Source of the DNA: Geopseudomonas sagittaria
Lineage (GTDB): Bacteria; Pseudomonadota; Gammaproteobacteria; Pseudomonadales; Pseudomonadaceae
Assembly (NCBI RefSeq): GCF_900115715.1
Contig: NZ_FOXM01000001.1
Coordinates: 248,001 to 312,000 of the forward strand
Direction of reading: 5' to 3'
Length of the DNA: 64,000 bases
In this document: positions 2,687-16,558 of the stretch, one piece after another
Layout of the letters: each line of letters opens with the position of its first letter
Numbering within the stretch: the stretch's first letter is position 1
The notes under the pieces: generated by a model
The model's input: the letters and a program-made list of their open reading frames with translations, nothing else
Told to the model about the DNA's origin: nothing
Database searches by the model: none
Made by a program: the position numbers and the translations under genes

Positions 2687-2773
2687 GCCTCGATGGCGGA
2701 ATCGGTAGACGCAGCGGATTCAAAATCCGCCGCTGGTAACAGCGTAAGAGTTCGAGTCTCTTTCGAGGCACCA
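2687..2773 (+). tRNA. tRNA-Leu (anticodon CAA)
   Basis: The 87-nt gene folds as a class II tRNA. The acceptor strands are GCCTCGA (2687-2693) and TCGAGGC (2763-2769), followed by discriminator A and an encoded CCA. The anticodon arm GCGGA-TTCAAAA-TCCGC gives anticodon CAA, which reads UUG. A long variable arm (CGCTGGTAACAGCG) and a TTCGAGTCT T loop are present. The 3' end is the integration target of the element that follows. Because the element supplied this 3' end, the tRNA remains intact. Confidence 0.96.
2750..2773 (+). other. attL: element junction in the tRNA-Leu 3' end
   Basis: The last 24 bases of the tRNA (GTTCGAGTC, TC, TTTCGAG, G, CACCA) recur at 12204-12226 with one substitution (T2759 versus C12213) and one missing G. 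The direct repeat brackets an integrase-bearing segment, as expected for tRNA-targeted tyrosine recombinases. This copy is the one kept functional as part of the tRNA. Confidence 0.8.
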
Positions 2774-2816
2774 TTTTAAGTTCCCAAGCACTACCGAAAC
2801 CGCTTGGAACCCACAG

Positions 2817-2840
2817 AAACCGGCCCTGCGCCGGTTTTTT
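2817..2840 (+). terminator. Intrinsic terminator after tRNA-Leu
   Basis: ACCGGC (2819-2824) pairs with GCCGGT (2830-2835) across a 5-base loop, followed by a T run to 2840. It lies on the element side of attL, so it replaces the chromosomal terminator now displaced to 12239-12259. Confidence 0.8.
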
Positions 2841-2880
2841 GTTGCCTGTGATTCCCTACCCAACCCTTGCAAGCCAAAAG

Positions 2881-2926
2881 TTTTGGGGGCATTTTTGGGG
2901 GCATCCGTTTTGCGATGCCCCCAAAA
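2881..2926 (+). repeat. Left-end arm-type repeats of the element
   Basis: Two tandem copies of TTGGGGGCAT, each preceded by T-rich bases, occupy 2881-2904. A third, inverted copy ATGCCCCCAAAA lies at 2915-2926, so an inverted repeat flanks CCGTTTTGCG. The 24-base tandem unit recurs exactly at 12127-12150, just inside attR. Position at both ends next to the integrase start suggests recombinase arm or excision-factor binding sites. Occupancy would also cover the integrase translation start, so autoregulation is plausible. Confidence 0.7.
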
Positions 2927-2938
2927 GGACTTCCAACC

Positions 2939-4150
2939 ATGCCCCGCAAGGCTGCGCCGCTGACTGACAGCGCCATCAAGACCGCCAAGCCCAAGGCCGC
3001 CCCGTACAAGCTGAGCGACGGCGAGGGCATGTACCTGGAGATCACCCCCACCGGCTCCAAGCTGTGGCGGATGAAGTACCGCTTCGACGGCAAGGAAAAG
3101 CGCCTGGCCTTCGGCGCCTACCCGGCCGTATCGCTGGCACAGGCCCGCGAGCAGCGCAAGGAGGCTCGCCAGCTGCTGGCCGATGGCCAAGACCCCGGCG
3201 AACACAAGAAAGCCGCCAAGCGGGAGACGAGGCACACCTTCGAGGAGCTGGCCAGGGAGTGGCACAGGTACAACGCCAAGCGCTGGGCGCCAGCCACCGC
3301 CGACAAGGCCATGCTGTACCTGGACAAAGACCTTTTTCCCATCATCGGCCGCAAGCCTGTGGCGACGATCACCCGCCCCGAGCTGGTGGAGCTGGTGCGC
3401 CGTATCGAGAGCCGAGGTGCCTTGAACGTGGCGAAGAAGGTTCGCCAGTGGTTGAGCCAGGTATTCCGCTACGCGCTGGCCAAGGGCGCCGTAGAGGCCA
3501 ACCCGGCCACCGACCTGAACGTGCTGGCCGAGCATGCGCCTCGCGTGGAACACCACCCACACATCCCCTTCGCCGAGTTGCCCGAGCTGCTGAAACGCAT
3601 GGACGCCGGCCGCGCCAACGTCATGACCCGACATGCTGTGCGCCTGCTGCTGCTGACTGGTGTTCGCCCTGGTGAACTTCGCCAGGCACCGTGGGCAGAG
3701 TTCGACCTTGAATCCGCCGTGTGGACGATCCCAGCCGAGCGGATGAAGGCCCGCCGCCCGCACATCGTCCCCCTGCCCCGCCAGGCCGTGGCCATCCTGC
3801 GCCAGCTGCAAGAGATCACCGGCCGCCATGCCCTGGTGTTCGCCGGCCGCAACCCCAGTCGATCGATGAGCGAGAACACGGTAAACAAGGCGCTCGCCAC
3901 TGCCGGCTACGAAGGCCGCCAGACCGGCCACGGCTTCCGCCACCTGCTGAGTACCGAGCTCAACGGGCGCGGCTTCAACCGAGATTGGATCGAGCGCCAG
4001 CTTGCCCACGGCGACAAGGACGAAATCCGCGACACCTACAACCACGCCACCTATCTAGAGCAGCGCCGGGGCATGATGCAAACGTGGGCCGATTCGCTCG
4101 ACGCCCTGTGCGCTGGCGCCAACGTGGTGGCGATCAAGCGCAAGGCATAA
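2939..4150 (+). CDS. P4-type tyrosine integrase
   Basis: This site-specific recombinase would integrate and excise the element at tRNA-Leu. The 403-aa length fits the P4 integrase family. An N-terminal DUF4102-like domain (LTDSAIKTAKPKAAPYKLSD, then GEGMYLEITPTGSKLW) is followed by a SAM-like core-binding domain and the catalytic domain. Visible catalytic residues are Arg243 (TGVRPGEL), His331-x-x-Arg334 (GHGFRH) and a Tyr near 367 (DTYNHATYL). I chose ATG 2939 because AAAGGA lies about 10 bases upstream. In-frame ATG 2915 and TTG 2867 would translate the arm repeats. It sits directly beside attL, as usual. Confidence 0.93.
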   Translation: MPRKAAPLTDSAIKTAKPKAAPYKLSDGEGMYLEITPTGSKLWRMKYRFDGKEKRLAFGAYPAVSLAQAREQRKEARQLLADGQDPGEHKKAAKRETRHTFEELAREWHRYNAKRWAPATADKAMLYLDKDLFPIIGRKPVATITRPELVELVRRIESRGALNVAKKVRQWLSQVFRYALAKGAVEANPATDLNVLAEHAPRVEHHPHIPFAELPELLKRMDAGRANVMTRHAVRLLLLTGVRPGELRQAPWAEFDLESAVWTIPAERMKARRPHIVPLPRQAVAILRQLQEITGRHALVFAGRNPSRSMSENTVNKALATAGYEGRQTGHGFRHLLSTELNGRGFNRDWIERQLAHGDKDEIRDTYNHATYLEQRRGMMQTWADSLDALCAGANVVAIKRKA

Positions 4151-4188
4151 CGCCCAAGCCTTCCCGCCAGTTCCCAAGCAGGCGCGGG

Positions 4189-4219
4189 TATACTGCGCCA
4201 TAGCTGTTGATCCATACAG
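4189..4219 (+). promoter_or_regulatory. Promoter with overlapping LexA box
   Basis: TATACT at 4189-4194 is a good -10 element. Ten bases downstream, CTGT-TGATCCAT-ACAG (4204-4219) matches the LexA consensus CTGT-N8-ACAG exactly, and six of the eight spacer bases match the box remembered for E. coli sulA. A repressor bound here would cover the transcription start. No convincing -35 was seen. This predicts SOS induction of the gene at 4327 and perhaps of the element. Confidence 0.7.
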
Positions 4220-4231
4220 GAAGCGAGTTAC

Positions 4232-4287
4232 CGGCCAGCCTAGCCCGACGGGGCGAAAAGCGGACTTCCCACCCGCCCGGCTGGCCG
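4232..4287 (+). other. Structured 5' leader hairpin
   Basis: CGGCCAGCC (4232-4240) pairs perfectly with GGCTGGCCG (4279-4287), and GGGCG / CGCCC can pair inside the loop. The hairpin is flanked by two CAGGAAG copies (about 4217-4223 and 4295-4301). It lies between the LexA-controlled start and the CDS at 4327, so it would be part of the mRNA leader. No T run follows, so a terminator is unlikely. Confidence 0.5.
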
Positions 4288-4326
4288 ATCTATTCAGGAA
4301 GTGGGAGCGCTTGGGAGTTCTATCGC

Positions 4327-4920
4327 GTGAGTGAGAAAAACGACGGGGTTTGCACATCGCATTCGGAAAAGCTGCGTATCGCAAAAAAGCGGCTCCCACC
4401 TGACATGTCTGAGATCGCCCTCAGAGGGGTATCTAGGAATGATCTGCTTCGCCTGGCAGCAGCCGCAGCAGCGCACGCCGCTGGAAAGGGAAGTGAGGAT
4501 GCCGCCATCTCATTCATGCTGCGCGCCATTGGTGAAATCGACCAGCTCTCAAAGGAGTTCCCACAGTGCGCGTCTCGCATTCTTACCGCAGCCTTCGAGC
4601 TCCTAGCGGCAAGCAATGTTCTCTTGTCCTGGAACTCACTTGCTGAGCATGACCGGCAATCAGCCACCCTGCGCCCATTGGTGAAGCATAACGCCGCAAA
4701 GTCCGCCGCCATTGAGCGAGCCCGAGACATCGCCACCGAACTATGGGGAGCGGACAGCGCGCAGGAGTTCCACATCTCCTCGATGGCCGAACAGGTCGAA
4801 GACATTTTGAGGCGCGAAGGATTCGAGGAGTTACCAAAGAATGAGCGCATCAAGGAGTGGATCAAGCCCACCGCTCCAGACTATGCCCGCAAGCCTGGTC
4901 GCCGCCCGAAAACATCCTGA
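4327..4920 (+). CDS. Unrecognised protein downstream of a LexA box
   Basis: I do not recognise this family. The protein is 197 aa if translation starts at GTG 4327, or 171 aa from ATG 4405. GGGAG about 10 bases upstream favours GTG 4327, whereas the ATG has no evident ribosome binding site. The open frame back to TTG 4207 overlaps the LexA box and hairpin and is unlikely to be coding. The product is soluble, Ala/Glu-rich and largely helical, with a basic tail (KPGRRPKTS) that could contact nucleic acid. The LexA box upstream suggests a damage-induced role, perhaps in excision or derepression; this is inference. Confidence 0.65.
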   Translation: MSEKNDGVCTSHSEKLRIAKKRLPPDMSEIALRGVSRNDLLRLAAAAAAHAAGKGSEDAAISFMLRAIGEIDQLSKEFPQCASRILTAAFELLAASNVLLSWNSLAEHDRQSATLRPLVKHNAAKSAAIERARDIATELWGADSAQEFHISSMAEQVEDILRREGFEELPKNERIKEWIKPTAPDYARKPGRRPKTS

Positions 4921-5027
4921 GCGCACGGATAACCCCTTTTCCGTACGGCCGGGGGAGTTTTTCTCACCACAACAGCCAACCACCATTACTGCCATCGTTC
5001 CCAACAACGCCCGAGGAGGCGCATACG

Positions 5028-5288
5028 ATGGCACGCACAGCCCACCCCATCCGCAAGCAACCCGAGCCTGCCGCAGCACCAACCAGCGAGCAGCCGCGCC
5101 GCTTCATCAAGCTGGCCGAAGTCCGCAGCCTGACCACCCTGAGCACGTCGGAGATTTACCGTCGAATCGCTGCCGGCACCTTCCCCGTGCAGGTCATGCT
5201 TGGCCCGAAGTCCGCCGTATGGATTGAATCCGAGATCCTAGCCTGGTGTGAGGCGCGCATCGCCGAGAGTCGCGGGGAGGCCGCCTGA
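5028..5288 (+). CDS. AlpA-family regulator
   Basis: AlpA proteins are small MerR-like winged-helix DNA-binding proteins that in P4-like elements activate integrase or excision. The 86-aa product matches the family core at about residues 27-80: FIKLAEVRSLTTLSTSEIYR, then AAGTFPVQVMLGPKSAVWIE and SEILAWCEARI. The N-terminus is a Pro/Ala-rich extension. ATG 5028 is preceded by GAGGAGG at 5012-5018, a strong ribosome binding site. The next gene starts one base after this stop, beginning a run of tightly packed small genes. The family call is secure; the target operator is unknown. Confidence 0.88.
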   Translation: MARTAHPIRKQPEPAAAPTSEQPRRFIKLAEVRSLTTLSTSEIYRRIAAGTFPVQVMLGPKSAVWIESEILAWCEARIAESRGEAA

Positions 5289-5289
5289 A

Positions 5290-5640
5290 ATGAAAACGGC
5301 CACCCGTTCCGTAGAACTGAGCAGCCGCGCGCACGGCAATTCTAGCACCGGCAGCGAGGAAGCCCCCAGCAAGATTGCTCGCCTGCTGAAGCACCTGCTG
5401 GCCGGCGCCAGCGTCAACCGCTTCGAGGCCGAGCGCCTGGGCGACCACTGCCTTCCATCCACCGTTGCGGTGCTGGCCAACCGTCACGGCCTGATCTTCA
5501 AGCGCCTACCTGAGAAAGTTCCGAACAGCTGGGGCAAGCCCTGCTACGTCACCCGCTACAGCCTGCCGGTCAGCGAGTACGACAAGGCCCGAAAAGTGCT
5601 GGCGCTGCTGAGCACGCCGAGCAAGAGGGCTGCTGCATGA
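5290..5640 (+). CDS. Small winged-helix-like protein, unknown role
   Basis: The 116-aa product contains a likely helix-turn-helix segment at about residues 28-65 (SKIARLLKHLLAGASVNRFE, then AERLGDHCLPSTVAVLANRH) followed by a strand-rich stretch ending YSLPVSEYDKARKVL. Small proteins of this layout are common after alpA in Pseudomonas elements, where they are usually annotated as hypothetical. It starts one base after the alpA stop, and its own stop overlaps the next possible ATG (ATGA at 5637-5640), so translation is probably coupled. A DNA-binding or replication accessory role is inference. Confidence 0.7.
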   Translation: MKTATRSVELSSRAHGNSSTGSEEAPSKIARLLKHLLAGASVNRFEAERLGDHCLPSTVAVLANRHGLIFKRLPEKVPNSWGKPCYVTRYSLPVSEYDKARKVLALLSTPSKRAAA

Positions 5641-5927
5641 TCCGCCCGAGCCTTGCCAAGCGCACCCACAGGCGCTACTCTGCGCCTGTCACGGTCAATC
5701 CCGTGTCCGGGTTTGGTAGCCCGATCAAGCAAAAGGCGCACAAGCGCCCCAAGTCCATTGCGAGGCGTTTTTTTACGCCTACAGCAACGCTCTATGGTGG
5801 CTGTGTGTGGGAGGGCTTCGGCCCTGCCGGGTTCCTTTTGCCCCGGTCTACCAACCTGCACACAGTCGCCACCCAATCCTGTTTGGTAGCAGGTAGTGGC
5901 GGCTCCTCAGCAAAAGGAGCTGTACCC
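5637..5927 (+). other. ash/Icd-like structured segment, open in frame with the next gene
   Basis: The frame from ATG 5637 (overlapping the previous TGA) is open for 97 codons and runs into the CDS at 5928 without a stop. Its translation (SGFGSPIKQKAHKRPKSIAR, then CVWEGFGPAGFLLPR and TNLHTVA) resembles the ash / Icd-like family of P4-type elements as I remember it. The RNA is rich in hairpins: ACAGGCGC / GCGCCTGT at 5668-5689, AGGCGT / ACGCCT at 5763-5780 and GGCTCCT / AGGAGCT just before the next start. It may encode a peptide, a regulatory RNA like the P4 immunity RNA, or both. Confidence 0.5.
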
Positions 5928-6245
5928 ATGAAGCACGACCCCGCCAGCAATCCGTCCTCACTCCAAGACCGCGCAGCAGCGCACCGCGCAATGGCCCTGG
6001 CCGCCCTGCGCGCCGACTCCTCCCTGTCCGTCCGTCTCAAGCGTTACAACCACCACATGAGCGTGGCGCGCAGTCTGGAGGCCACCGCAGAGCACGACAG
6101 CACCACCAGCACCCGCGACCCGCGCACCGCCCTGGCCTGGATCCAATCTGGCCGCCCGGTGCGTATCGACTCGCTGAACCTGCGCGACCATCTGCGCCAC
6201 GTCCGCGCCCTGGCGGCTCTGGAAGCCCAAGGGGGTGCGCAATGA
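5928..6245 (+). CDS. Small unknown protein, internal in-frame start
   Basis: The 105-aa product starts at ATG 5928 behind a strong AAAAGGA (5912-5918). The frame stays open to ATG 5637, so a 202-aa fusion with the ash-like segment is possible. The strong internal site argues that the short form is at least the main product. It is Ala/Arg/His-rich and helical, with the motif RTALAWIQSGRPVRIDSLNL at about residues 66-85, and no domain that I recognise. It ends in ATGA with the next gene at 6242. Function unknown. Confidence 0.6.
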   Translation: MKHDPASNPSSLQDRAAAHRAMALAALRADSSLSVRLKRYNHHMSVARSLEATAEHDSTTSTRDPRTALAWIQSGRPVRIDSLNLRDHLRHVRALAALEAQGGAQ

Positions 6246-6574
6246 CCTGCCGCACCTACTCCACCCCGGAAGACGTGCTGCGCGTCCCCGGCGACGTGCC
6301 GCCCGGCTACCCGATTGACGCTATCGACTGCGCCCTGAGCCGTGCGGACGCCGTGGTTGTGCTGCTGTCCGGCCAGTTCGACGGCACGGGCGCCGAGCGT
6401 CTGGCCGATCACATCGTGAGCAATGCCCTGTGGGCTGTGCGTGGAGAGCTGGCCATGCTGCGCCAGCTGTTCGAGCACGGTCACCAGACCGAGGCGCAGC
6501 GTGTCGCCGAAGATCTGGACAAGGCGCTGGCCGCTGCCGGCAAGACCGCCCAGCGCAAAGGAGGTGCGCAATGA
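6242..6574 (+). CDS. Small unknown protein of the element
   Basis: The 110-aa protein starts at ATG 6242, overlapping the preceding stop by four bases, which suggests translational coupling. The central part (YPIDAIDCALSRADAVVVLL, then SGQFDGTGAERLADHIVSN) is a helix-rich stretch, followed by a helical C-terminal half (LAMLRQLFEHGHQTEAQRVA) that may form a short coiled coil. I do not recognise the family, and there is no signal peptide or membrane segment. The gene is part of the 5028-9185 cluster and ends overlapping the next start. Confidence 0.6.
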   Translation: MTCRTYSTPEDVLRVPGDVPPGYPIDAIDCALSRADAVVVLLSGQFDGTGAERLADHIVSNALWAVRGELAMLRQLFEHGHQTEAQRVAEDLDKALAAAGKTAQRKGGAQ

Positions 6575-6828
6575 TCGCCTTCACCATCGCTGGCGGTTTC
6601 TCCCTGTACCACTACGTCCAGCACAGCGACCAGCCGCGCTACCCCTACGGAGTGTGCGGCCCGTTCACCACTGAGGCCGAAGCGTCCGAGGCCCTGGAGC
6701 GCATCACCGCTGTTTTCCCTGCTGCCGCGCTCCACATCGAGGAGGCCGGCTTTGCCGGTGATGCCGGCGCCATGCTGGCGCAAGACCACGCCAACGCGCG
6801 CCAGCGCCTCGCACAGCTGAGGGCCTAA
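6571..6828 (+). CDS. Small unknown protein of the element
   Basis: This 85-aa product starts at ATG 6571 inside the ATGA overlap with the previous stop. AAAGGAGG at 6558-6565 gives it a good ribosome binding site. The first half (TIAGGFSLYHYVQHSDQPRY, then GVCGPFTTEAEASEALERI) looks like a small alpha/beta fold of the kind that adds missing residues in phage genes, and the tail is helical. No catalytic motif is visible and the family is not recognised. The neighbouring genes suggest a role in element replication or control, but nothing in the sequence shows it. Confidence 0.6.
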   Translation: MIAFTIAGGFSLYHYVQHSDQPRYPYGVCGPFTTEAEASEALERITAVFPAAALHIEEAGFAGDAGAMLAQDHANARQRLAQLRA

Positions 6829-6831
6829 CCC

Positions 6832-7074
6832 ATGTCCGATTTTCAACGCTGCCAGCTGGCGGCGACGGCCCCGGCTTGCCCGGAGAAATGCGCCGACCTG
6901 CTGACACCTAACCACCTGGAGCTGATCCGCGAGGCCGCGCAGGCGCTCCACCGCGCTACCGCTGCTGGCCCGACTACCTCGGCAGACATGGATGCTTGGC
7001 TGCTCGCCGCCGAGCGTCTAGCCGTGGCTCTTGTCTCCCGCCTTGAAGCCCTGGAGGCAATGCCATGCCTGTAA
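6832..7074 (+). CDS. Small helical unknown protein
   Basis: The 80-aa protein starts at ATG 6832, three bases after the previous stop. It is mostly alpha-helical (LTPNHLELIREAAQALHRAT, then DAWLLAAERLAVALVSRLEA), with three cysteines near the N-terminus that do not form a recognisable zinc motif. The end overlaps the next start by ten bases. Small helical proteins like this are common in phage early regions. Function unknown. Confidence 0.55.
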   Translation: MSDFQRCQLAATAPACPEKCADLLTPNHLELIREAAQALHRATAAGPTTSADMDAWLLAAERLAVALVSRLEALEAMPCL

Positions 7075-7283
7075 TTCCCTTCGATCCTGACAGGCACATC
7101 ATCCGCAGCGAGCCGGCCCATATCGACAGCGCAAGCAATTTCCTGCTGCTGGCCGTCCTCTCCGACCTGGTTGCCCTCTGCGACAGCGAGCCAGACCACC
7201 AGCGCGCCGAGGTGCTGCGCGCGACCACCTGCGCCCTGGGCGACGTGTTGGAGCGGTTCGAGCCGCCAAGGGGTACAGCATGA
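7065..7283 (+). CDS. Small helical unknown protein
   Basis: The 72-aa product overlaps the previous gene by ten bases and the next by four (ATGA), so all three are likely translationally coupled. It begins MPVIPFDPDRHIIRSEPAH and continues as two helices (NFLLLAVLSDLVALCDSE and RAEVLRATTCALGDVLERFE). No domain is recognised. It immediately precedes the zinc-finger gene, so it may belong to the replication module; that is inference from position only. Confidence 0.55.
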   Translation: MPVIPFDPDRHIIRSEPAHIDSASNFLLLAVLSDLVALCDSEPDHQRAEVLRATTCALGDVLERFEPPRGTA

Positions 7284-7666
7284 GCGCACCAATCGACGTG
7301 GTACTTCAGCGACTCGACAAGGTGAAGGCTGCTGGCGCCGGCAAGTGGAAAGCCTGCTGCCCGGCTCACGATGACCGCGACCCAAGCCTGAGCATCCGCG
7401 AAGCCGAGGACGGCAAGGTTCTGTTGCACTGCTGGGCCGGCTGCGACACCGAGAGCATCGCCGCCGCCATCGGCCTGACCATCCGCGACCTGTTCCCAGG
7501 CAGCAGCATGCGCCCTGTAAGCAGCGGCCCGAGCAAGGCCGCGCGGGAGCTGGAGGCGACTGTTATCAGCATCGCAGTGGAGCATCTGCGCCAGGGCAGG
7601 CAGCTGTCTGCTGCCGACCGAGATCGCTACGAGACGGCAAAGCGCCGGTTAGGGGTAGCCGTATGA
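7280..7666 (+). CDS. Orphan primase-type (CHC2-like) zinc-finger protein
   Basis: The 128-aa protein has the zinc-binding signature of bacteriophage-type primases: ACCPAHDDRDPSLSIREAED, then LLHCWAGCD, at about residues 24-57. The Cys/His ligands are in CHC2-like order. In DNA primases this domain recognises the template start site and is followed by a TOPRIM catalytic core; here the protein ends after a helical tail with no TOPRIM motif. The stop overlaps the helicase start by four bases. A two-gene arrangement with the helicase is likely. It may guide priming by another protein, or bind origin DNA. Confidence 0.75.
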   Translation: MSAPIDVVLQRLDKVKAAGAGKWKACCPAHDDRDPSLSIREAEDGKVLLHCWAGCDTESIAAAIGLTIRDLFPGSSMRPVSSGPSKAARELEATVISIAVEHLRQGRQLSAADRDRYETAKRRLGVAV

Positions 7667-8895
7667 GCGCCAAGATCGAGAGCTTCAAGAGGGAGTGGGC
7701 CGAAGCTGCCGCCAAGGACGTGTGGCGCGCAAACGCGGTTCAAGCGACCAGCATCACGCCGACTGCCATCCACTGGGCTTGGCCCGGCTGGCTGGCCCTG
7801 GGCAAGCTGACCATCCTTGCCGGCGCTGGTGGCACCGGGAAAACCACCCTCACCATCGGACTTGCGGCAACCATGACTTGTGGCGGTCGCTGGCCTGACG
7901 GCGAGATCTACCGCGAGCGTAGGAGCGTCATCATCTGGTCAAGCGAGGATGACGCCGCCGACACCATCGTGCCGCGCCTCATCGCCTCCGGCGCCGATCT
8001 GAGCAAGGTTTACATCCTGCAAGGTCGCGTCAACGGGCTTGGCGAAGTCGAGCCATTCGACCCGGCAAAGGATATTGATCTGCTGGCCGCCGAGCTGGAG
8101 CGTATCGGGGATGTTGGCCTGATCATGATCGACCCCATCGTCTCCGCCGTCGCTGGTGACATGCACCGCGCAAACGATGTTCGCCGGGCACTTCAAGGGC
8201 TGGTTGATCTGGCCGAGCGTTACGACTGCGCCGTCCTGGGCATCACCCACTTCTCGAAGGGCTCAGCAGGCAGCAACCCCGCCGAGCGTGTTCTCGGATC
8301 GCAGGCGTTCGGCGCGCTGGCTCGCACCGTCCTGGTAGCAGCAAAACAGGAAGACTCCGACCTTCGGGTGCTGGCTCGCGCCAAGTCGAATATTGCCGAT
8401 GACTCTGGCGGGTGCTCCTACTCAATCGAGGAATGTACTGTCCGCGAAAACATCACTACCACTCGCGTGCTGTGGGGCGAACGGATCGAGGGTAGCGCAC
8501 GGGAGATCCTGGCCGACGTGGAGCGGGTCGAGGGTGACGAGCAGCCAGACGGCGATGATCCTAGCGACTGCCTTTACCGCATCCTCAAGGACAACCCGCT
8601 GGAAAGCAACAACGCCAAGTCCCTGATGAAAAGCAACGGCTACACCGAAAAGCAGATACGCCGAGCAAGGGAAAAATTGGCTGTTGTGGTAGCTCGGACA
8701 GGCAGCAAAAAGGACGTGAAGTCTTACTGGTCGCTGCCCCAAGAAACCGACGAAACCTTACTCGTGCCCTCGAAACCTTACTCGTGCCCATCCCTAGGCG
8801 TGGGCACGAGTGAGAAAAAAGGGCACGAGTTGGAAAAAGGGGCACGAGTGGATGCCGCCGAGGACTTCGACGAAGCAGACGCTGAGGTGTTCTGA
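7663..8895 (+). CDS. RepA-like hexameric helicase (AAA_25 / RecA fold)
   Basis: The 410-aa protein is the probable replicative helicase of the element. Walker A is GAGGTGKTTLTIGLA at about residues 54-68, and Walker B is VGLIMIDPIVS near 146-156. The region LGITHFSKGSAGSNPAERVL is the motif 3 / sensor stretch typical of RSF1010 RepA-like enzymes. A second, winged-helix-like part begins near residue 305 (DCLYRILKDNPLESNNAKSL). The last 50 residues are low in recognisable structure because they are encoded by the iteron cluster at 8751-8849. It overlaps the zinc-finger gene upstream and the next gene downstream. Confidence 0.87.
   Translation: MSAKIESFKREWAEAAAKDVWRANAVQATSITPTAIHWAWPGWLALGKLTILAGAGGTGKTTLTIGLAATMTCGGRWPDGEIYRERRSVIIWSSEDDAADTIVPRLIASGADLSKVYILQGRVNGLGEVEPFDPAKDIDLLAAELERIGDVGLIMIDPIVSAVAGDMHRANDVRRALQGLVDLAERYDCAVLGITHFSKGSAGSNPAERVLGSQAFGALARTVLVAAKQEDSDLRVLARAKSNIADDSGGCSYSIEECTVRENITTTRVLWGERIEGSAREILADVERVEGDEQPDGDDPSDCLYRILKDNPLESNNAKSLMKSNGYTEKQIRRAREKLAVVVARTGSKKDVKSYWSLPQETDETLLVPSKPYSCPSLGVGTSEKKGHELEKGARVDAAEDFDEADAEVF
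8751..8849 (+). repeat. Iteron cluster, candidate replication origin
   Basis: CGAAACCTTACTCGTGCCC occurs twice in tandem (8751-8769 and 8771-8789). GGGCACGAGT, the inverse of the repeat core, occurs three times at 8802-8811, 8821-8830 and 8840-8849, with a 19-base period. ACTCGTGCCCA and TGGGCACGAGT form an 11-bp palindrome around TCCCTAGGCG (8780-8811). A-rich tracts follow the inverted copies. This has the layout of an iteron origin read by a Rep protein, yet lies inside the helicase coding region. Confidence 0.75.
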
Positions 8896-9185
8896 TGGCC
8901 GCAATCGACTACCTGAGAGAGCACGGATTGTCGGCCAGAGTCAGGGGGGAACGGATCATCATTTCCCCTCGCTCTAGCGTCACCGAACCAATCCGCCAGT
9001 TCATCAAATTGCACCGCCTTGAGCTGCTGGCCGAACTGGCGGCAAACGACGGCGAGACGCGCCGTGCTGCCTGGGACGTGTCCATACCCGGATACGGAAA
9101 GCGCCGGATGATCGGCGAGCCATGCACCCACGCCGAAGCGCTGGAACACGTCAGGGGGATATGGCCTGGCGCCGCTATCGAGTGA
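8895..9185 (+). CDS. Small unknown phage-type protein
   Basis: The 96-aa protein starts at ATG 8895, sharing the A of the helicase TGA. The N-terminal half (MAAIDYLREHGLSARVRGER, then SVTEPIRQFIKLHRLELLAE) resembles a helical fold common near phage replication genes, with the TubC docking-domain pattern of a short hairpin followed by helices. The second half carries AWDVSIPGYGKRRMIGEP and a helical end. No catalytic motif is seen. It is the last gene before a terminator, so it closes the early operon. Confidence 0.6.
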   Translation: MAAIDYLREHGLSARVRGERIIISPRSSVTEPIRQFIKLHRLELLAELAANDGETRRAAWDVSIPGYGKRRMIGEPCTHAEALEHVRGIWPGAAIE

Positions 9186-9192
9186 CCACCTC

Positions 9193-9223
9193 AAGCCCGG
9201 TTAACCACCGGGCTTTTTCTTTT
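9193..9223 (+). terminator. Intrinsic terminator after the replication cluster
   Basis: AGCCCGGT (9194-9201) pairs with ACCGGGCT (9207-9214) across TAACC, followed by TTTTCTTTT. It separates the early cluster (alpA to 9185) from the late-looking genes downstream. Confidence 0.88.
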
Positions 9224-9327
9224 CAGGATGATCCAAAACTGGAGCATTTTTCATGGCACCAAGCGTGCATGTTTTCTACCCGCGTTTGGTATCTTGGTCG
9301 AGCCATCGAAAGAGCGCCGGGGTACGG

Positions 9328-9786
9328 ATGAGCAAGAGCACGGAAAGATTGCCGCTGAGCATTAGGGAGCTGGGCGAAGTCCTGGGCGTGTACGGGGCGC
9401 TGGGTCTGATAAGCCAGCTGCCCACCGTTGAAAAGCGCGACCATCGATACCCTGGGCGTGTCCGGCGGGTGCCGATTCTGTACGTGCCGAAGTCGATCAG
9501 GCCGGGTTGCAAGCTTGTGGCGATCCTTGGCCAGGAGCATGCCGGGCGCCTGATTGAGAAGTTCGGCGGCGAGATGCTTTTTCCTGCAAGCTGTATCGGG
9601 CTGTACAAGGCCGCACGAAAAAAGGCGGTTCGTTACGTGGTTCACGATGAAGGCGCCGCGATCACAGAGGCCGCCGCGCTTTTCTGCATGAGCCCGAGCC
9701 AAATCAAGAACATCCTCGAGTATCCCCCTGGCCCGTGGGATGCGTGGGTTCCTGATCCTGTCGCGGGCACTACACGACAAGGGTAG
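9328..9786 (+). CDS. Mor-like transcriptional regulator
   Basis: The 152-aa protein resembles the Mor/C activators that switch on middle and late genes of Mu-like phages. Visible similarities are the core LVAILGQEHAGRLIEKFGGE, a proline/aromatic strand and a C-terminal helix-turn-helix (ITEAAALFCMSPSQIKNILE). ATG 9328 leaves about 100 bases after the terminator for a promoter. ATG 9253 is in frame, has GGAG at 9241-9244 and would add 25 residues, so it remains possible. Sitting just before the capsid-like gene, it may activate that operon; this is inference. Confidence 0.65.
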   Translation: MSKSTERLPLSIRELGEVLGVYGALGLISQLPTVEKRDHRYPGRVRRVPILYVPKSIRPGCKLVAILGQEHAGRLIEKFGGEMLFPASCIGLYKAARKKAVRYVVHDEGAAITEAAALFCMSPSQIKNILEYPPGPWDAWVPDPVAGTTRQG

Positions 9787-9796
9787 TGAGCCCGGC

Positions 9797-10019
9797 ATGA
9801 CCCCTGCCGCCGCGAAATCAAAGGTACTCCGTCGATGGGGGCACCTTGTGGGTGGATAGCATCCACGGCGATTGGCACCTGCGTGCCTCCGAAAATCGCC
9901 TACCAGACTTCCAAACAGTCTCAACCCTGCATAAGTGCTCGGAAATCCCGCCAGAAGCTCAGCACATCGCACGCCATCAAACTGCCCGCATCGACAACAG
10001 AAACGGGCACTTTGAATGA
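9797..10019 (+). pseudogene. Small gene broken by a frameshift in a G run
   Basis: ATG 9797 opens MTPAAAKSKVLRRWG and then hits a stop (TAG at 9857-9859) soon after GGGGG at 9837-9841. Removing one G joins it to a second frame reading TLWVDSIHGDWHLRASENRL, then DNRNGHFE, and ending TGA at 10017-10019. The joined 73-codon frame looks like a genuine compact protein. Its stop overlaps the next ATG as ATGA, as in coupled genes. The cause may be a real mutation, a programmed shift at the G run, or a sequencing error. Confidence 0.6.
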
Positions 10020-10936
10020 CCAGCAAACTCCACCAGCTGTTGACCGACGCCGGGCAGGCAGTCGGCTACCAAGATCACATCGCCGTGGGCGCTACCGAGC
10101 CGCACGCCCGCACCATGAAGCGCGCCGCCGAGGCAACTGGGCTGAGCATGCTTCATGAGCAGGCGCCGACCCTGAACCCTGGCGTTGATGGCGGCCTGTA
10201 CCTGCCGTACGGTACCGAAGCCGGCAAGGTAAGCACCCTGGCCGCCGCCATGCTTTCCCACAGCGTCACCGGCAAGGCCGGCGCTCAAATCATCGTCATC
10301 GACCGCGCCCCGGCGGCGCCTGCTGGAGAGTCGACGCTCCCGGCGTTTTACACCCGTGATTACCGATTCGACGTGGTGAAGCCGGCACAGTTTGCGCTGC
10401 TGGCCGATGGCGCCGAAGTGACGGATGCCGCGTGGCCGATCAGTCGCGCCGCCGTCGACCTCTCCACCATGCCGACCTACTCATTCCGGGTGAACATGAC
10501 CCGCGCGCAGCAGCGCGAGTACGGGCTGGGCTTCCTGTCCGCCGAGCTGGAACATTCCATCATCGCCGGTATCGCCCGCTCCGCTGACGCCGCCCTGCTG
10601 GCCGCCATCGTAGCAACCACTCCCGCCGCGTTCTCCCTGGGCGCTGCCGCTGCCAAGGGCTGCCAGTTCGCCGACCTGCGCGCAATCGTCGGCAGTGCCG
10701 GCACAGGTGCTGCCGCTCAACAGGGTGAGCTGTTCGTGGATGGCATGGCCGCCGAGTTGTGCATGGAAGTCGCCCCGACCATCGTCGGCACCTGGATGCG
10801 CGCCGCTGTGGCCGTTCATGAGGACGTGACCCTGATTGCTGATCGCCGAAGCGTTGAGGGTGATTTGTCGCTCACCTGCTTCGTGAACCTGCAACCGCTG
10901 GTGCCGGACGCGGGCTACTTCTTCGTGCGCGGCTGA
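10016..10936 (+). CDS. Possible HK97-fold major capsid protein
   Basis: The 306-aa protein begins in the ATGA overlap with the broken gene. I recognise no exact family, but its layout resembles a small HK97-type capsid protein. It has an N-terminal arm, then a strand-rich region (DYRFDVVKPAQFALLADGAE), a long spine-like helix (SAELEHSIIAGIARSADAAL), a P-domain-like middle and a final beta stretch (EDVTLIADRRSVEGDLSLTC). No portal, protease, scaffold or terminase gene accompanies it. If correct, it could redirect helper capsid assembly or form small particles. Alternatives include another phage structural or decoy protein. Confidence 0.45.
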   Translation: MTSKLHQLLTDAGQAVGYQDHIAVGATEPHARTMKRAAEATGLSMLHEQAPTLNPGVDGGLYLPYGTEAGKVSTLAAAMLSHSVTGKAGAQIIVIDRAPAAPAGESTLPAFYTRDYRFDVVKPAQFALLADGAEVTDAAWPISRAAVDLSTMPTYSFRVNMTRAQQREYGLGFLSAELEHSIIAGIARSADAALLAAIVATTPAAFSLGAAAAKGCQFADLRAIVGSAGTGAAAQQGELFVDGMAAELCMEVAPTIVGTWMRAAVAVHEDVTLIADRRSVEGDLSLTCFVNLQPLVPDAGYFFVRG

Positions 10937-10949
10937 CCTGGAGGCCACC

Positions 10950-11312
10950 ATGCGAATTTTCGACCTGTTCAAGCGCAAACCGAGCAACGAGCTTCCGGCA
11001 GAGGTGGCCACCGCCATCGAGGCCGCGCACATCATCCTCAGACCGCACGGCGAGGAAGGCGATATTCGCGCCGTGGTACAGGTCGCCGGCCACCGTGGCG
11101 GCTGGATTCACAGCGCCGAGGAAGACGCCCGGCACCTGGCCGCCCTGTGGCCCGAGTTGAGTCCTGGGCAACTGGCCCGCGCCCACCAGTTCATCGCCGC
11201 CAGCGTTCGCCAGCGGTACCGCAACCTTGACGCCGAGCAGCAAGGGACGCGCGTCACCTACGCGAACAGGTACAGCCGGACGCACTACGAAAGCGGTTAC
11301 GGGAGGAAGTAG
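10950..11312 (+). CDS. Unknown protein after the capsid-like gene
   Basis: The 120-aa product has a strong ribosome binding site (CTGGAGG at 10939-10945). It begins MRIFDLFKRKPSNELPAEV, a pattern like the N-terminus of small phage proteins next to capsid genes. It continues as helices (AEEDARHLAALWPELSPGQL, then ARAHQFIAASVRQRYR) and ends in a basic, tyrosine-rich tail (YANRYSRTHYESGYGRK) that could bind nucleic acid. Family not recognised. It is spaced 13 bases after the capsid-like stop and is probably co-transcribed. Confidence 0.6.
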   Translation: MRIFDLFKRKPSNELPAEVATAIEAAHIILRPHGEEGDIRAVVQVAGHRGGWIHSAEEDARHLAALWPELSPGQLARAHQFIAASVRQRYRNLDAEQQGTRVTYANRYSRTHYESGYGRK

Positions 11313-11316
11313 GCCA

Positions 11317-11496
11317 ATGACCACCAAGACGAAAGACCAGTACCGAATCACCGTCTGCCTTGATGAGCAGACCGCCGCCGCCCTAGAGAAAGAACACCGC
11401 GACTTCGCGCAGAAGACCGGCGTTGCAGCCTCGAAAACCAAGATCGCCGCCCGTGCCATCGCCGCCGGGCTCGGGATTACCAGCCGGGCCGGCTGA
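11317..11496 (+). CDS. Ribbon-helix-helix-like small DNA-binding protein
   Basis: The 59-aa protein has the pattern of an Arc/MetJ-type ribbon-helix-helix fold: a short basic strand YRITVCLDEQTAAALEKEH, then a turn and a second helix ASKTKIAARAIAAGLGI. Such dimers act as repressors, antitoxins or relaxosome parts. ATG 11317 follows GGGAGGA at 11301-11307, four bases after the preceding stop. No toxin partner is evident. A repressor role for the local operon is the simplest reading, but not shown. Confidence 0.6.
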   Translation: MTTKTKDQYRITVCLDEQTAAALEKEHRDFAQKTGVAASKTKIAARAIAAGLGITSRAG

Positions 11497-11599
11497 CAGA
11501 ATGCCGCCTCGCCCCCTGGCGGTTTGGTTCAAAGGGGGTGCTGTGCCGCCCGGCTCTGGATTCGCTCCCGGAGTCGGGCACCTTTTCCGAGGGTCACGA

Positions 11600-11926
11600 A
11601 TGAACACCAACGACACGCTTTCCACGCTGTACGCCGTACAGGCCGACATCGAGGAGGTAGCCGCCAAGCTCCTTCGTGATGCCCAGATGCTGAAGACGAT
11701 CATCAAGCGGCAGCCACTGTCCCCAGAGCTTACCGACCTGCTCGCCGAGTTGCGCCGCGACGGCGACAACATCAAGACGCGCACCGCGTTCTTCCGTGGC
11801 GCCCTGGTCGAGCACGCCGACGCCGAGCACGCCGACCGCATGCGCCCCCGTAGGGTGGCACGCTGCGTTCCGGGATCACGTGAAGACCTGGTGCGCCGTG
11901 GCGCCCTGCTGGTCAAGGGCGCGTAA
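11600..11926 (+). CDS. Small helical unknown protein, last gene of the element
   Basis: The 108-aa protein starts at ATG 11600 behind GAGGG. It consists of long amphipathic helices (TLSTLYAVQADIEEVAAKLL, then SPELTDLLAELRRDGDNIKT) that probably form a coiled coil, followed by an Arg-rich segment. The frame is also open back to ATG 11501, where the extra codons overlie a hairpin-rich stretch, repeating the arrangement seen at 5637-5927. The upstream ATG lacks a ribosome binding site. Function not recognised. Confidence 0.55.
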   Translation: MNTNDTLSTLYAVQADIEEVAAKLLRDAQMLKTIIKRQPLSPELTDLLAELRRDGDNIKTRTAFFRGALVEHADAEHADRMRPRRVARCVPGSREDLVRRGALLVKGA

Positions 11927-12203
11927 TCTTGGGTCCTTTCTCGCCCTGGGGGCTATGCGGGGACATGGTCGCCGCGCCGATCGATATCTGTGTGATCCGC
12001 AAAATCAATTCTCCTGCTGGTGCCACCAGAAGCCACCCGCCGACCTTCACCCGACAAGCGGTAAAGACTGGGATTGGTTGGCACGAATAGGGCACAATCC
12101 GCCCCCATCGACGGGGGTACTTTTCGTTTTGGGGGCATTTTTGGGGGCATCGAGAAACCGCCACCGCCCGCAAAGCCAGTATTTCCGGGGTTTTTTCACT
12201 GGT
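11927..12203 (+). other. Non-coding right end of the element
   Basis: I see no gene here. The stretch holds a GC-rich hairpin (CCCCC at 12102-12106 with GGGGG at 12113-12117, then a T-rich tail to 12130) that may terminate the last element transcript. It also holds the arm repeat at 12127-12150 and a short segment up to attR at 12204. Confidence 0.6.
12127..12150 (+). repeat. Right-end arm-type repeats of the element
   Basis: An exact copy of the 24-base tandem unit at 2881-2904 (two TTGGGGGCAT motifs), in the same orientation and 54 bases inside attR. There is no inverted third copy here, unlike at the left end. Confidence 0.75.
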
Positions 12204-12226
12204 GTTCGAGTCCCTTTCGAGCACCA
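12204..12226 (+). other. attR: displaced copy of the tRNA-Leu 3' end
   Basis: GTTCGAGTC-CC-TTTCGAG-CACCA repeats the tRNA 3' end at 2750-2773, with T to C at 12213 and loss of one G before CACCA. No upstream acceptor strand is present, so it is not a tRNA. It marks the far end of the element. Confidence 0.8.
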
Positions 12227-15444: not shown

Positions 15445-16558
15445 GGACGGCCTCCTTCGCGGCATTGCGGGCCGCCCATTTCAAGCGCAGCGGCTCCCAG
15501 TAGAGCAGCAGCAGGCCGATGCCGAGGAACAGCCCGTGCACCCACCACAGACCGAGCGCCAGCGGCAGGCGGCCCTTTTCCAGCTGGCCGCGCATGGCGA
15601 TCAGCAGGGCCAGGTAGGTCATGTACAGGAGGATCGCCGGCAGCAGCTTGAGGAAACGCCCCTGGCGCGGGTTGACCCGTGCCAGCGGCACCGCCAGCAC
15701 GGTGACCACGAACACCAGCAGCGGCAGCGACAGCCGCCACTGCAGCTCGGCCTGGTGGCGCGGATTGTCGCTGCCGAACAGGTTGGCGGTGGGGATGCCC
15801 TCGCGTTCGTTCAGCTCGCCGGCCACTTCCGGCTTGGGCAGCAGCACGCCGTAGCGGTCGTAGCGGATCGCCCGATAGTCGGCCTGGCCGGGCTTGCCGT
15901 CGTAGCGGTAGCCGTTCTCGAGAATCAGGTAGCGGCTGCCGTCGGCACGGATCTCCTGGCGGCCGGACTCGGCGACCAGCACGCTGATGCCGCGCTGCTT
16001 GTCGCCGGCGCGCGACAGCTGCAGCTCGGAGATGAACACCCCGGACAATTCGCTGCGGTCCTCGGACAGCGCCTCTGTGTAGGTCACCCGGCCGCCGCTC
16101 TTCAGCGACTGGAAGCGCCCCGGTGCCAGGGTGTCGAACTCGGTGAGGGCGTCCTGGCTGTTGAGGATCTGCTCGACGCGGGTCACCCCCTGCGGCGCCA
16201 GGCCGAGGCTCAGCCAGCCGACCAGCAGCGCCACCAGCGCCGCCGGCGCGAGGGTGTAGGCCAGCAGGCGCTGGCGGCTCATGCCGGCGGCCGACAGCAC
16301 GCTCATCTCCGACTCGAGATACAGGCGCCCGTAGGCCAGCAGGATGCCGAGGAACAGGCCCAGCGGCAGGATCAGCTGCAGGAAGCCCGGCAGGCGCAGC
16401 CCCATGATCATGAACAGCACCCCGGGGTCGAGCAGACCCTGGGCGGCCTGCGCCAGGTACTTGATGAAGCGCCCGCTCATGATGATCACCAGCAGCACGG
16501 CACTCACCGCACTGAGGGTCACCAGCACTTCGCGGGACAAATAACGGAAGATGATCAA
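15431..16558 (-). CDS. lptF: LPS export permease LptF
   Basis: LptF pairs with LptG in the inner-membrane LPS transporter. The 375-aa protein begins MIIFRYLSREVLVTLSAVSA and shows the family segments LPGFLQLILPLGLFLGILLA and SEMSVLSAAGMSRQRLLAYT, then a periplasmic jellyroll and three C-terminal helices. It is divergent from pepA, which is the normal Pseudomonas arrangement. About 150 bases between the two starts must hold both promoters. lptG follows and overlaps. Confidence 0.95.
   Translation of the reverse strand: MIIFRYLSREVLVTLSAVSAVLLVIIMSGRFIKYLAQAAQGLLDPGVLFMIMGLRLPGFLQLILPLGLFLGILLAYGRLYLESEMSVLSAAGMSRQRLLAYTLAPAALVALLVGWLSLGLAPQGVTRVEQILNSQDALTEFDTLAPGRFQSLKSGGRVTYTEALSEDRSELSGVFISELQLSRAGDKQRGISVLVAESGRQEIRADGSRYLILENGYRYDGKPGQADYRAIRYDRYGVLLPKPEVAGELNEREGIPTANLFGSDNPRHQAELQWRLSLPLLVFVVTVLAVPLARVNPRQGRFLKLLPAILLYMTYLALLIAMRGQLEKGRLPLALGLWWVHGLFLGIGLLLLYWEPLRLKWAARNAAKEAVRGQA

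Follow-up and report, generated by a model that had tools for sequence, protein, structure and literature searches.

A probable PICI-type satellite in tRNA-Leu(CAA) of Geopseudomonas sagittaria and its predicted helper group among small myoviruses

A compact segment of the Geopseudomonas sagittaria genome, in which an integrase stands together with regulatory genes, replication genes and a lone capsid-like gene, raises the question of what kind of mobile element it represents and which phage might carry it. The segment lies in a window of 64,000 nucleotides (assembly GCF_900115715.1, contig NZ_FOXM01000001.1, positions 248,001 to 312,000), to which all coordinates refer, and constitutes a satellite-like element of ~9.5 kb (2750-12226) integrated in tRNA-Leu(CAA). 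We consider it likely that this element is a cos-packaged satellite of the phage-inducible chromosomal island (PICI) type with P4-style RNA immunity, and that its helper belongs to the 41-44 kb PPpW-3/Persinger/Mano/Mica/Jilinvirus myoviruses. An earlier sequence-only reading had suggested a new satellite or replicating integrative element; its satellite-like nature and the lack of a virion set held up, but the gene order fits the one published for Gram-negative PICIs. The element falls within a known kind of satellite; the variant found here has a capsid-like family borne on satellites, an activator of the Mor type and one particular group of phages as its predicted helpers.

Element boundaries, cos-like site and predicted helper group

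The terminal 24 bases of tRNA-Leu(CAA), the sole tRNA gene found by ARAGORN in the window, are imperfectly repeated at 12203-12226. The DNA at attR and rightward of it was used as a query and matched 8/8 genomes of the genus, the source genome included. In 6 of the 7 other genomes the tRNA gene was directly joined to the right-hand DNA, with the 3' end shared, while the seventh gave no left-hand match in this comparison. Based on the att copies and the uninterrupted tRNA gene of these congeners, the element extends from 2750 to 12226, as the sequence-only reading had proposed, and the tRNA-Leu(CAA) site is normally empty in the genus. Exact 26-bp direct repeats inside both ends are probably arm sites of the integrase. 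The open frames are packed on one strand, and the element is apparently intact and well bounded.

At the end of the late zone, positions 11920-12010 matched a cos profile built from six phages (ep3, PPpW-3, Persinger, Mano, Arya and MQ-4) that was applied to the window plus 19 further loci. The profile reached at most 8.8 bits in 30 shuffles of the window (3-base blocks), and the site ranked first with all six leave-one-out profiles (14.9 to 28.9 bits). The held-out phage Mica was found with 33.4 bits, and the Mano record has a PhageTerm cohesive end marked within the motif. In 79 control loci (776 kb), matches above 10 bits were confined to training phages, the satellite contig L032 and L038, itself a copy of the site in the window (loci are numbered L, genomes G and contigs C). 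A TerS scan of viral contigs had yielded 21 loci, one being the satellite L033 and the other 20 distant (22-45% identity); the latter, used as cos controls, gave no match above 7.5 bits. Among 17 relatives that share the capsid module described below, 14 had a cos match (L011, L012, L013, L015, L024-L031, L032 and L033). L024 and L027 share a 73-bp stretch at 96-97% identity with ep3 15601-15673, which precedes the ep3 terminase; the other DNA matches of these loci to ep3 are 67-77% identical. A weak second match lies ahead of the capsid-like gene, the place of cos in many relatives, and is possibly a worn older site.

The helper group was predicted because Mor protein, TerS, tape measure, primase and cos separately match phages of the PPpW-3/ep3 type. 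The Mor-type protein is closest to the PPpW-3 late activator (42% over residues 32-159), with further matches to Mano, Xanthomonas M29, Persinger and FoX2. The TerS of one relative is 58% identical over aa 79-133 to an ep3-type TerS, and that of L036 is 51% identical over residues 3-167 of PPpW-3 TerS. An E. coli satellite carries a tape measure with 47% full-length identity to Persinger (569 phage records match overall) and a primase with ~67% DNA identity to ep3. The seven phages of the PPpW-3/ep3 group that were fetched measure 41.9-44.0 kb. The BASEL paper describes Jilinvirus and its relatives as having very small genomes for myoviruses, an enigmatic lifestyle and related genera on pseudomonads, and reports that the Jilinvirus HeidiAbel (Bas97) was spotted on an E. 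coli K-12 derivative; its main text contains neither 'satellite' nor 'PICI'. A literature search that left most subscription papers and preprints uncovered found no pairing of PPpW-3 or Iiscvirinae with a satellite.

Satellites with and without their own TerS differed in their cos scores. Scores of 26.7, 50.4, 40.9, 72.8, 68.4, 68.3, 72.2, 73.2 and 65.1 bits were obtained for those without TerS, versus 23.6, 34.7, 37.7, 45.8, 31.0 and 7.7 bits for those with TerS (one-sided Mann-Whitney p 0.0038 for related sequences, several E. coli-type ones closely so). L032 (72.8 bits, without a visible TerS in a locus that stops 1.2 kb past the capsid gene) and L019 and L036 (TerS, no cos score) were left out of the test; including any of the three would have strengthened the contrast. 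The TerS-bearing L025, L028 and L033 mostly keep the GGGGCA centre and differ to its right, and L024, L026, L027, L029, L030 and L031 almost equal ep3 for ~35 bases right of this centre. Because of the relatedness of the sequences, the apparently higher cos scores of TerS-less satellites are a lead, not proof.

Gene order and known satellite systems

Protein scans of the 17 open reading frames (ORFs) of the element against Pfam and PHROGs (E 1) bore out the integrase, AlpA, zinc finger, RepA-like helicase and Mor-like regulator of the earlier reading (Table 1), and likewise the lack of terminase, portal, tail and lysis genes; mobilisation families were absent as well. The zinc-finger protein scored 24.0 bits against PF01807 (DnaG Zn-ribbon), slightly below the cut-off of 24.9, and is 53% identical to a Phipami28 protein; a full primase was not found in the element. 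The iterons were likewise confirmed, as five exact GGGCACGAGT copies (3 direct, 2 inverted) that have no further exact copy in the 64 kb. The ash-like segment of the earlier reading is indeed an eta/ash-type frame (58% identity to its counterpart in the satellite phiAH14b, 48% to that in L036; no Pfam or PHROG family), and it holds a C4 antisense RNA that had been missed as an RNA. The int-alpA RNA, the cos-like site and the connection to a single helper group had been overlooked as well. The proposed LexA control of the gene at 4327 was unsupported: the window has a single CTGT-N8-ACAG, the box at 4204-4219, against 0.56 expected by chance, and none was found in 13 related loci (215 kb). A significant, conserved LexA box as in a LexA-regulated element was lacking.

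Table 1. Annotated features of the element, in window coordinates.
Feature	Position	Strand	Evidence
tRNA-Leu (CAA), integration target; 3' end = attL	2687..2773	+	ARAGORN; empty sites in congeners
attL core GTTCGAGTCTCTTTCGAGGCACCA	2750..2773
26-bp exact direct repeat, left copy	2880..2905
Tyrosine integrase with arm-binding domain; alternative longer start 2867	2939..4150	+	PF00589, PF13356; 69% to phiAH14b integrase
LexA-box-like CTGT-N8-ACAG, CTGTTGATCCATACAG; not significant, not conserved	4204..4219	+
int-alpA RNA (RF02996)	4233..4299	+	Rfam 61.1 bits, gathering 35.8
Gene of unknown function between int and alpA	4327..4920	+
AlpA excisionase/activator	5028..5288	+	PF05930, 57.2 bits, 1.6e-15
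Gene of unknown function	5290..5640	+	52% identity to AH14b_p04
eta/ash-type reading frame containing C4 locus; gene start uncertain	5637..6245	+
c4-a1b1 target RNA (RF03163)	5675..5727	+	Rfam 44.8 bits, slightly below gathering 46.7
isrK-like RNA (RF01394)	5688..5775	+	Rfam 41.5 bits, below gathering 50
C4 antisense RNA (RF01695), P4/P1-type immunity RNA	5790..5876	+	Rfam 85.5 bits, gathering 45
Four small genes of unknown function (6242-6574, 6571-6828, 6832-7074, 7065-7283)	6242..7283	+
CHC2-type zinc-finger (primase-like) protein	7280..7666	+	phrog_6088 primase, 5.4e-18
RepA-like AAA_25 replicative helicase	7663..8895	+	PF13481, 130.7 bits, 6.8e-38
Origin-like iteron array in helicase 3' end	8760..8849		5x GGGCACGAGT
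Small gene following helicase	8895..9185	+	61% identity to Phipami28 protein
Mor-family late transcription activator; start 9253 or 9328	9253..9786	+	phrog_836, 3.9e-16
Weak second cos-like match upstream of capsid-like gene	9809..9896	+	9.7 bits, barely above chance (shuffles to 8.8)
Capsid-like protein, 306 aa, probably HK97 fold	10016..10936	+
Late-zone gene 2, conserved beside capsid-like gene	10950..11312	+	36-40% to 3 relatives
Late-zone gene 3, short, ribbon-helix-helix-like by eye	11317..11496	+	31-33% to 3 relatives
Late-zone gene 4	11600..11926	+	39-52% to 3 relatives
cos-like packaging site matching PPpW-3/Mano/ep3-type phages	11920..12010	+	26.7 bits, E 9.2e-8 in window
26-bp exact direct repeat, right copy	12126..12151
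attR core TGTTCGAGTCCCTTTCGAGCACCA, imperfect copy of attL	12203..12226

Gram-negative PICIs follow a plan that PMC10111431 gives as integration genes with AlpA, then Bro with C4/isrK-type immunity RNA in several islands, then replication and late genes. The order found here fits it: int and AlpA, C4, then zinc finger, helicase and iterons, then the late zone (Bro domains were not searched as such). As read from the DNA, the element has the small size, int-then-AlpA start and specific att site of such islands, a putative replication gene and origin of its own (AAA_25 helicase, five iterons), and a candidate packaging determinant in the cos-like site. Its Mor-type protein matches a late-activator profile. 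EcCICFT073 and the fis PICIs, as PMC6092414 and PMC10111431 describe them, share the int-alpA start, in some cases second-zone immunity RNAs, the replication genes and a late zone often with a lone capsid gene; EcCICFT073 also carries the cos of its helper. According to PMC10111431, a major capsid gene is present in 21/29 reference PICIs, which makes a lone capsid gene usual for such islands. Both E. coli chromosomal loci that were opened (L027, L028) occupy the known fis-PICI site between yhdJ and fis; the catalogue of fis PICIs in PMC10111431 may well include the E. coli relatives already. The window element differs from Gram-negative PICIs in its capsid-like protein without Pfam or PHROG match, its Mor-type activator, its tRNA-Leu site and the zinc finger plus AAA_25 helicase that replaces a full primase. 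The predicted helper is also unlike that of EcCICFT073, which was studied with lambda.

The earlier reading knew of no standard P2/P4 or Mu module like this gene combination; the combination does match this published order, and part of it resembles phiAH14b (KU708005), which according to PMC4936722 is packaged into the capsids that a larger Pseudomonas phage also uses. phiAH14b is 71% identical at the DNA level in three pieces within 2949-6071 (29% of a 7-kb query), with 69% identity for the integrase, 63% for AlpA and 52% for the next gene, and 89 bits for its C4 RNA. It differs in its size of 16.8 kb and has no match to the zinc finger, helicase and capsid module of the window or to the cos profile.

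With P4 the element has in common a C4-type antisense immunity RNA and an AlpA-like regulator. P4 also targets tRNA-Leu and relies on the cos of its helper. It differs from P4 in the Mor-type activator of the late zone and the capsid-like protein; Delta/Ogr and Psu families were absent among the Pfam matches of the 17 ORFs, and no dedicated Sid profile search was made. Capsid-forming PICIs likewise carry a capsid gene on the satellite. Unlike these, the window element has no large terminase, portal or protease family among its ORFs. A lone capsid homologue also occurs in SaPIbov5 (Ccm) and PmCI172; although the PDB includes the Ccm-containing procapsid of SaPIbov5, the profile of the window's capsid-like family (A5) found no PDB chain at E 10.

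One side observation concerns the phage record of Phipami28 (PV029746.1, 24000-44000; L085), in which AlpA, zinc-finger and small genes with best identities of 53-68% to those of the window lie near ABC-transporter genes. This 56.9-kb record may include some bacterial chromosome that holds a satellite.

The capsid-like gene and relatives with the same late module

The capsid-like assignment of the earlier reading stood as regards its nearest folds, which are HK97-type phage capsids, although neither a Pfam nor a PHROG family matched at E 1 and the structural model was weak. AlphaFold2, run on nine sequences of the family, returned a predicted local distance difference test score (pLDDT) of 49.6 and a predicted template modelling score (pTM) of 0.55, for a model that shows a helix of 39 residues and, at the C-terminal end, two long strands. 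The first 27 PDB fold matches were by title all capsids of tailed phages, gene transfer agents or satellites, or encapsulins (E 0.08-0.75 with this weak model, none individually significant), and the BFVD search with the same weak model gave two rows at E <= 0.001, both capsid proteins. These proteins share the HK97 fold, and the capsid-like protein probably has it too. Nine family members searched against PHROGs gave nothing better than E 0.089.

Relatives of the capsid-like protein were found in this analysis only in satellite-like elements. Neither of two queries matched at E 0.01 in 50,697 phage records, while 72,556 plasmid records yielded five matches. Genome samples, with the source genome included, gave matches in 5/398 of the bacterial family, 4/390 in the order, 1/369 in the class and 2/398 in the phylum; these are lower bounds from partly overlapping samples with few candidates scored. 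One family-sample match was false (G087/L014, inside a phnM-like gene) and was dropped, and one order-sample match (G108) was weak and excluded. The window protein itself had no match in genome contigs; a four-sequence alignment found five loci there, three of them the L011-L013 genomes again and two new, from Pseudomonas sp. CBZ-4 (L015) and Bradyrhizobium (L019). Viral contigs gave three matches with an E. coli capsid sequence and none in four other scans (window protein, alignment A1, L036, L037).

Eleven relatives (L011, L012, L013, L015, L019, L024, L025, L027, L028, L036, L037) were compared by tblastn and blastp. Late gene 2 was present in all eleven, late gene 4 in 8/11 and AlpA in 7/11; AlpA was not found in two circular records, in L019 or, by tblastn, in L037, which has an AlpA-like ORF by eye. 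By sequence comparison, the capsid-like gene is part of a module common to small satellite-like elements in other bacteria. These relatives differ in integrase and site, L011, L012, L013 and L015 lying beside tRNA-Arg(CCT) and L036 and L037 beside tRNA-Ser genes. A conserved RNA between late genes 3 and 4 was considered and rejected: L036 8748-8828 alone matched Proteo-phage-1 (44.2 bits), the window had no match, and the alignment shows little.

In E. coli, 65/5426 genomes matched a 9.1-kb query, none across more than 80% of it (64 chromosomal, one plasmid). Records deposited as E. coli, Salmonella and Proteus plasmids (L024-L026, L029, L030) carry the capsid module, a VapE/toprim-type primase and a cos-like site, and have no annotated integrase. 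Four of them (L024, L025, L029, L030) are circular at 8.9-9.3 kb, and L026, with 17.4 kb and a repeated gene order, is apparently a dimer. L024, L029 and L030 have an annotated tape measure gene. All these records look like natural cosmids of Jilinvirus-type phages. Two further loci were observed: the alphaproteobacterial relative L019 (Bradyrhizobium sp. NAS80.1) combines the capsid-like gene with a TerS that shares 53% identity with the L013 TerS, and vB_Pae_U10 (PP003922.1, 10,183 bp; L084) was submitted as a complete phage but resembles a satellite. Its record contains an integrase, primase genes, C4 RNA and a single capsid gene standing alone, noted GpN.

Competing explanations and the proposed satellite cycle

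Several observations weigh against a cos-packaged satellite with a helper of the PPpW-3 group. The site in the window scores lower than those of the E. coli satellites, it comes last in the late zone while the relatives opened have cos upstream of the capsid gene, and without Mano in the profile its score falls to 14.9 bits (E 4e-4), a partial dependence on this one phage. The PhageTerm mark of the Mica record is at 8123-8135 in a gene, away from the place near TerS that the profile indicates. Two relatives, L019 and L036, have no cos match, the latter despite its C4, TerS, capsid gene and Mor-like ORF, and L037 reaches only 7.7 bits. TerS is carried by 8/17 capsid-module relatives, while tblastn with seven TerS queries found none in the window element. 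The capsid-like protein aligned with the helper head protein in hhalign at P 0.032 (rank 2 of 89 clusters), a value that does not establish homology. PPpW-3 large terminase (TerL) has no match in the source genome, where no such helper is resident. Across 37 genomes it had only distant matches (28-35%), in 8 genomes, namely 1/6 satellite-bearing genomes (G144, 31%) versus 7/31 others, and co-residence therefore gives no support to the pairing. Finally, induction, excision, replication, Mor activation, packaging, transfer and the role of the capsid-like protein are inferred. A lytic or absent helper would be compatible with a satellite, leaving the pairing a prediction.

A satellite of another helper group, such as an AH14a-like phage or a resident prophage, with a cos likeness that was inherited and is no longer used, is the most serious competitor but an unlikely one. 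The DNA at 2949-6071 is closest to phiAH14b, whose helper AH14a differs, and besides lacking a PPpW-3-type terminase the source genome (G000) has two prophage regions recognised by their large terminases, at ~112-150 kb of C34 (C34:112104) and ~20 kb of C17 (C17:20075). The satellite integrase has 44-45% identity to one encoded at C34:148.7 kb. However, the cos profile matches in the window and neither in phiAH14b nor in vB_Pae_U10, both of which also lack a match to the window capsid gene, and the Mor protein also indicates the PPpW-3 group. The resident prophages were rejected as helpers: outside the integrase they have no DNA in common with the element at E 1e-3, and the genome has no PPpW-3-type terminase.

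That the element is a decayed prophage or a chance set of phage genes we regard as very improbable, even though structural, terminase and lysis families are absent, the copy is the only one found among 8 genus genomes and some relatives are damaged, such as L028 with its primase interrupted by IS1. One-strand packed frames, att ends, the empty congener site and two regulatory RNAs above gathering speak against decay, and the capsid-like gene and gene 2 occur together in 11/11 relatives, in other hosts and with other integrases. Because the late module is conserved in relatives with other integrases and sites, decay is disfavoured. Equally improbable is an integrative element of plasmid-like nature whose spread depends on conjugation or natural uptake and whose phage-derived genes do no more than interfere with phages. 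Replication functions with iterons, and the 8.9-9.3 kb circular records among the relatives, typed as non-mobilizable plasmids, would suit such an element, but no relaxase or conjugation family was found among its proteins (Pfam/PHROG), PADLOC gave a single weak match among 10 proteins (LmuA, E 0.003, to the 6242 ORF), and a cos-like site is present in the window element as well as in the 14 relatives named above.

For the favoured PICI-type satellite, the following cycle can be proposed. The integrase would insert the element in tRNA-Leu(CAA), as the att ends and empty sites indicate, and the C4 antisense RNA, to judge from its RNA family, would hold the replication operon off in the lysogen. 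Helper infection may raise AlpA and thereby trigger excision, whereupon the zinc-finger protein and AAA_25 helicase, by their domains and the iterons, would replicate the circle from the iteron origin. The Mor-type protein would turn on late promoters in the satellite and perhaps in the helper too, in the role that Delta has in P4. A lambda-type terminase of the helper may then cut the cos-like site, whose likeness to phage cos is seen, and pack the satellite into helper-tailed particles. In the least certain step, the capsid-like protein would join or redirect helper head assembly to give smaller heads, as SaPIbov5 Ccm does, or block assembly.

A broader picture, for which we see about an even chance, is that of a satellite lineage specialised on the PPpW-3/Persinger/Mano/Jilinvirus group across Pseudomonadaceae and Enterobacterales. 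TerS-less members would copy the helper cos closely and rely on the helper terminase, and TerS-bearing members would keep most of the cut site with a diverged flanking half. The satellite-only capsid would be the hallmark of the lineage, some members would be integrase-less ~9-kb circular natural cosmids, and the window member would use Mor as a stand-in for Delta.

These data point to a testable helper; for this satellite family, our bounded literature search found no published one. The prediction can be tested directly, as candidates include HeidiAbel. The TerS-bearing and TerS-less satellites offer a natural experiment on the co-evolution of terminase and cos, and the satellite-borne capsid family represents a new case of possible head piracy.

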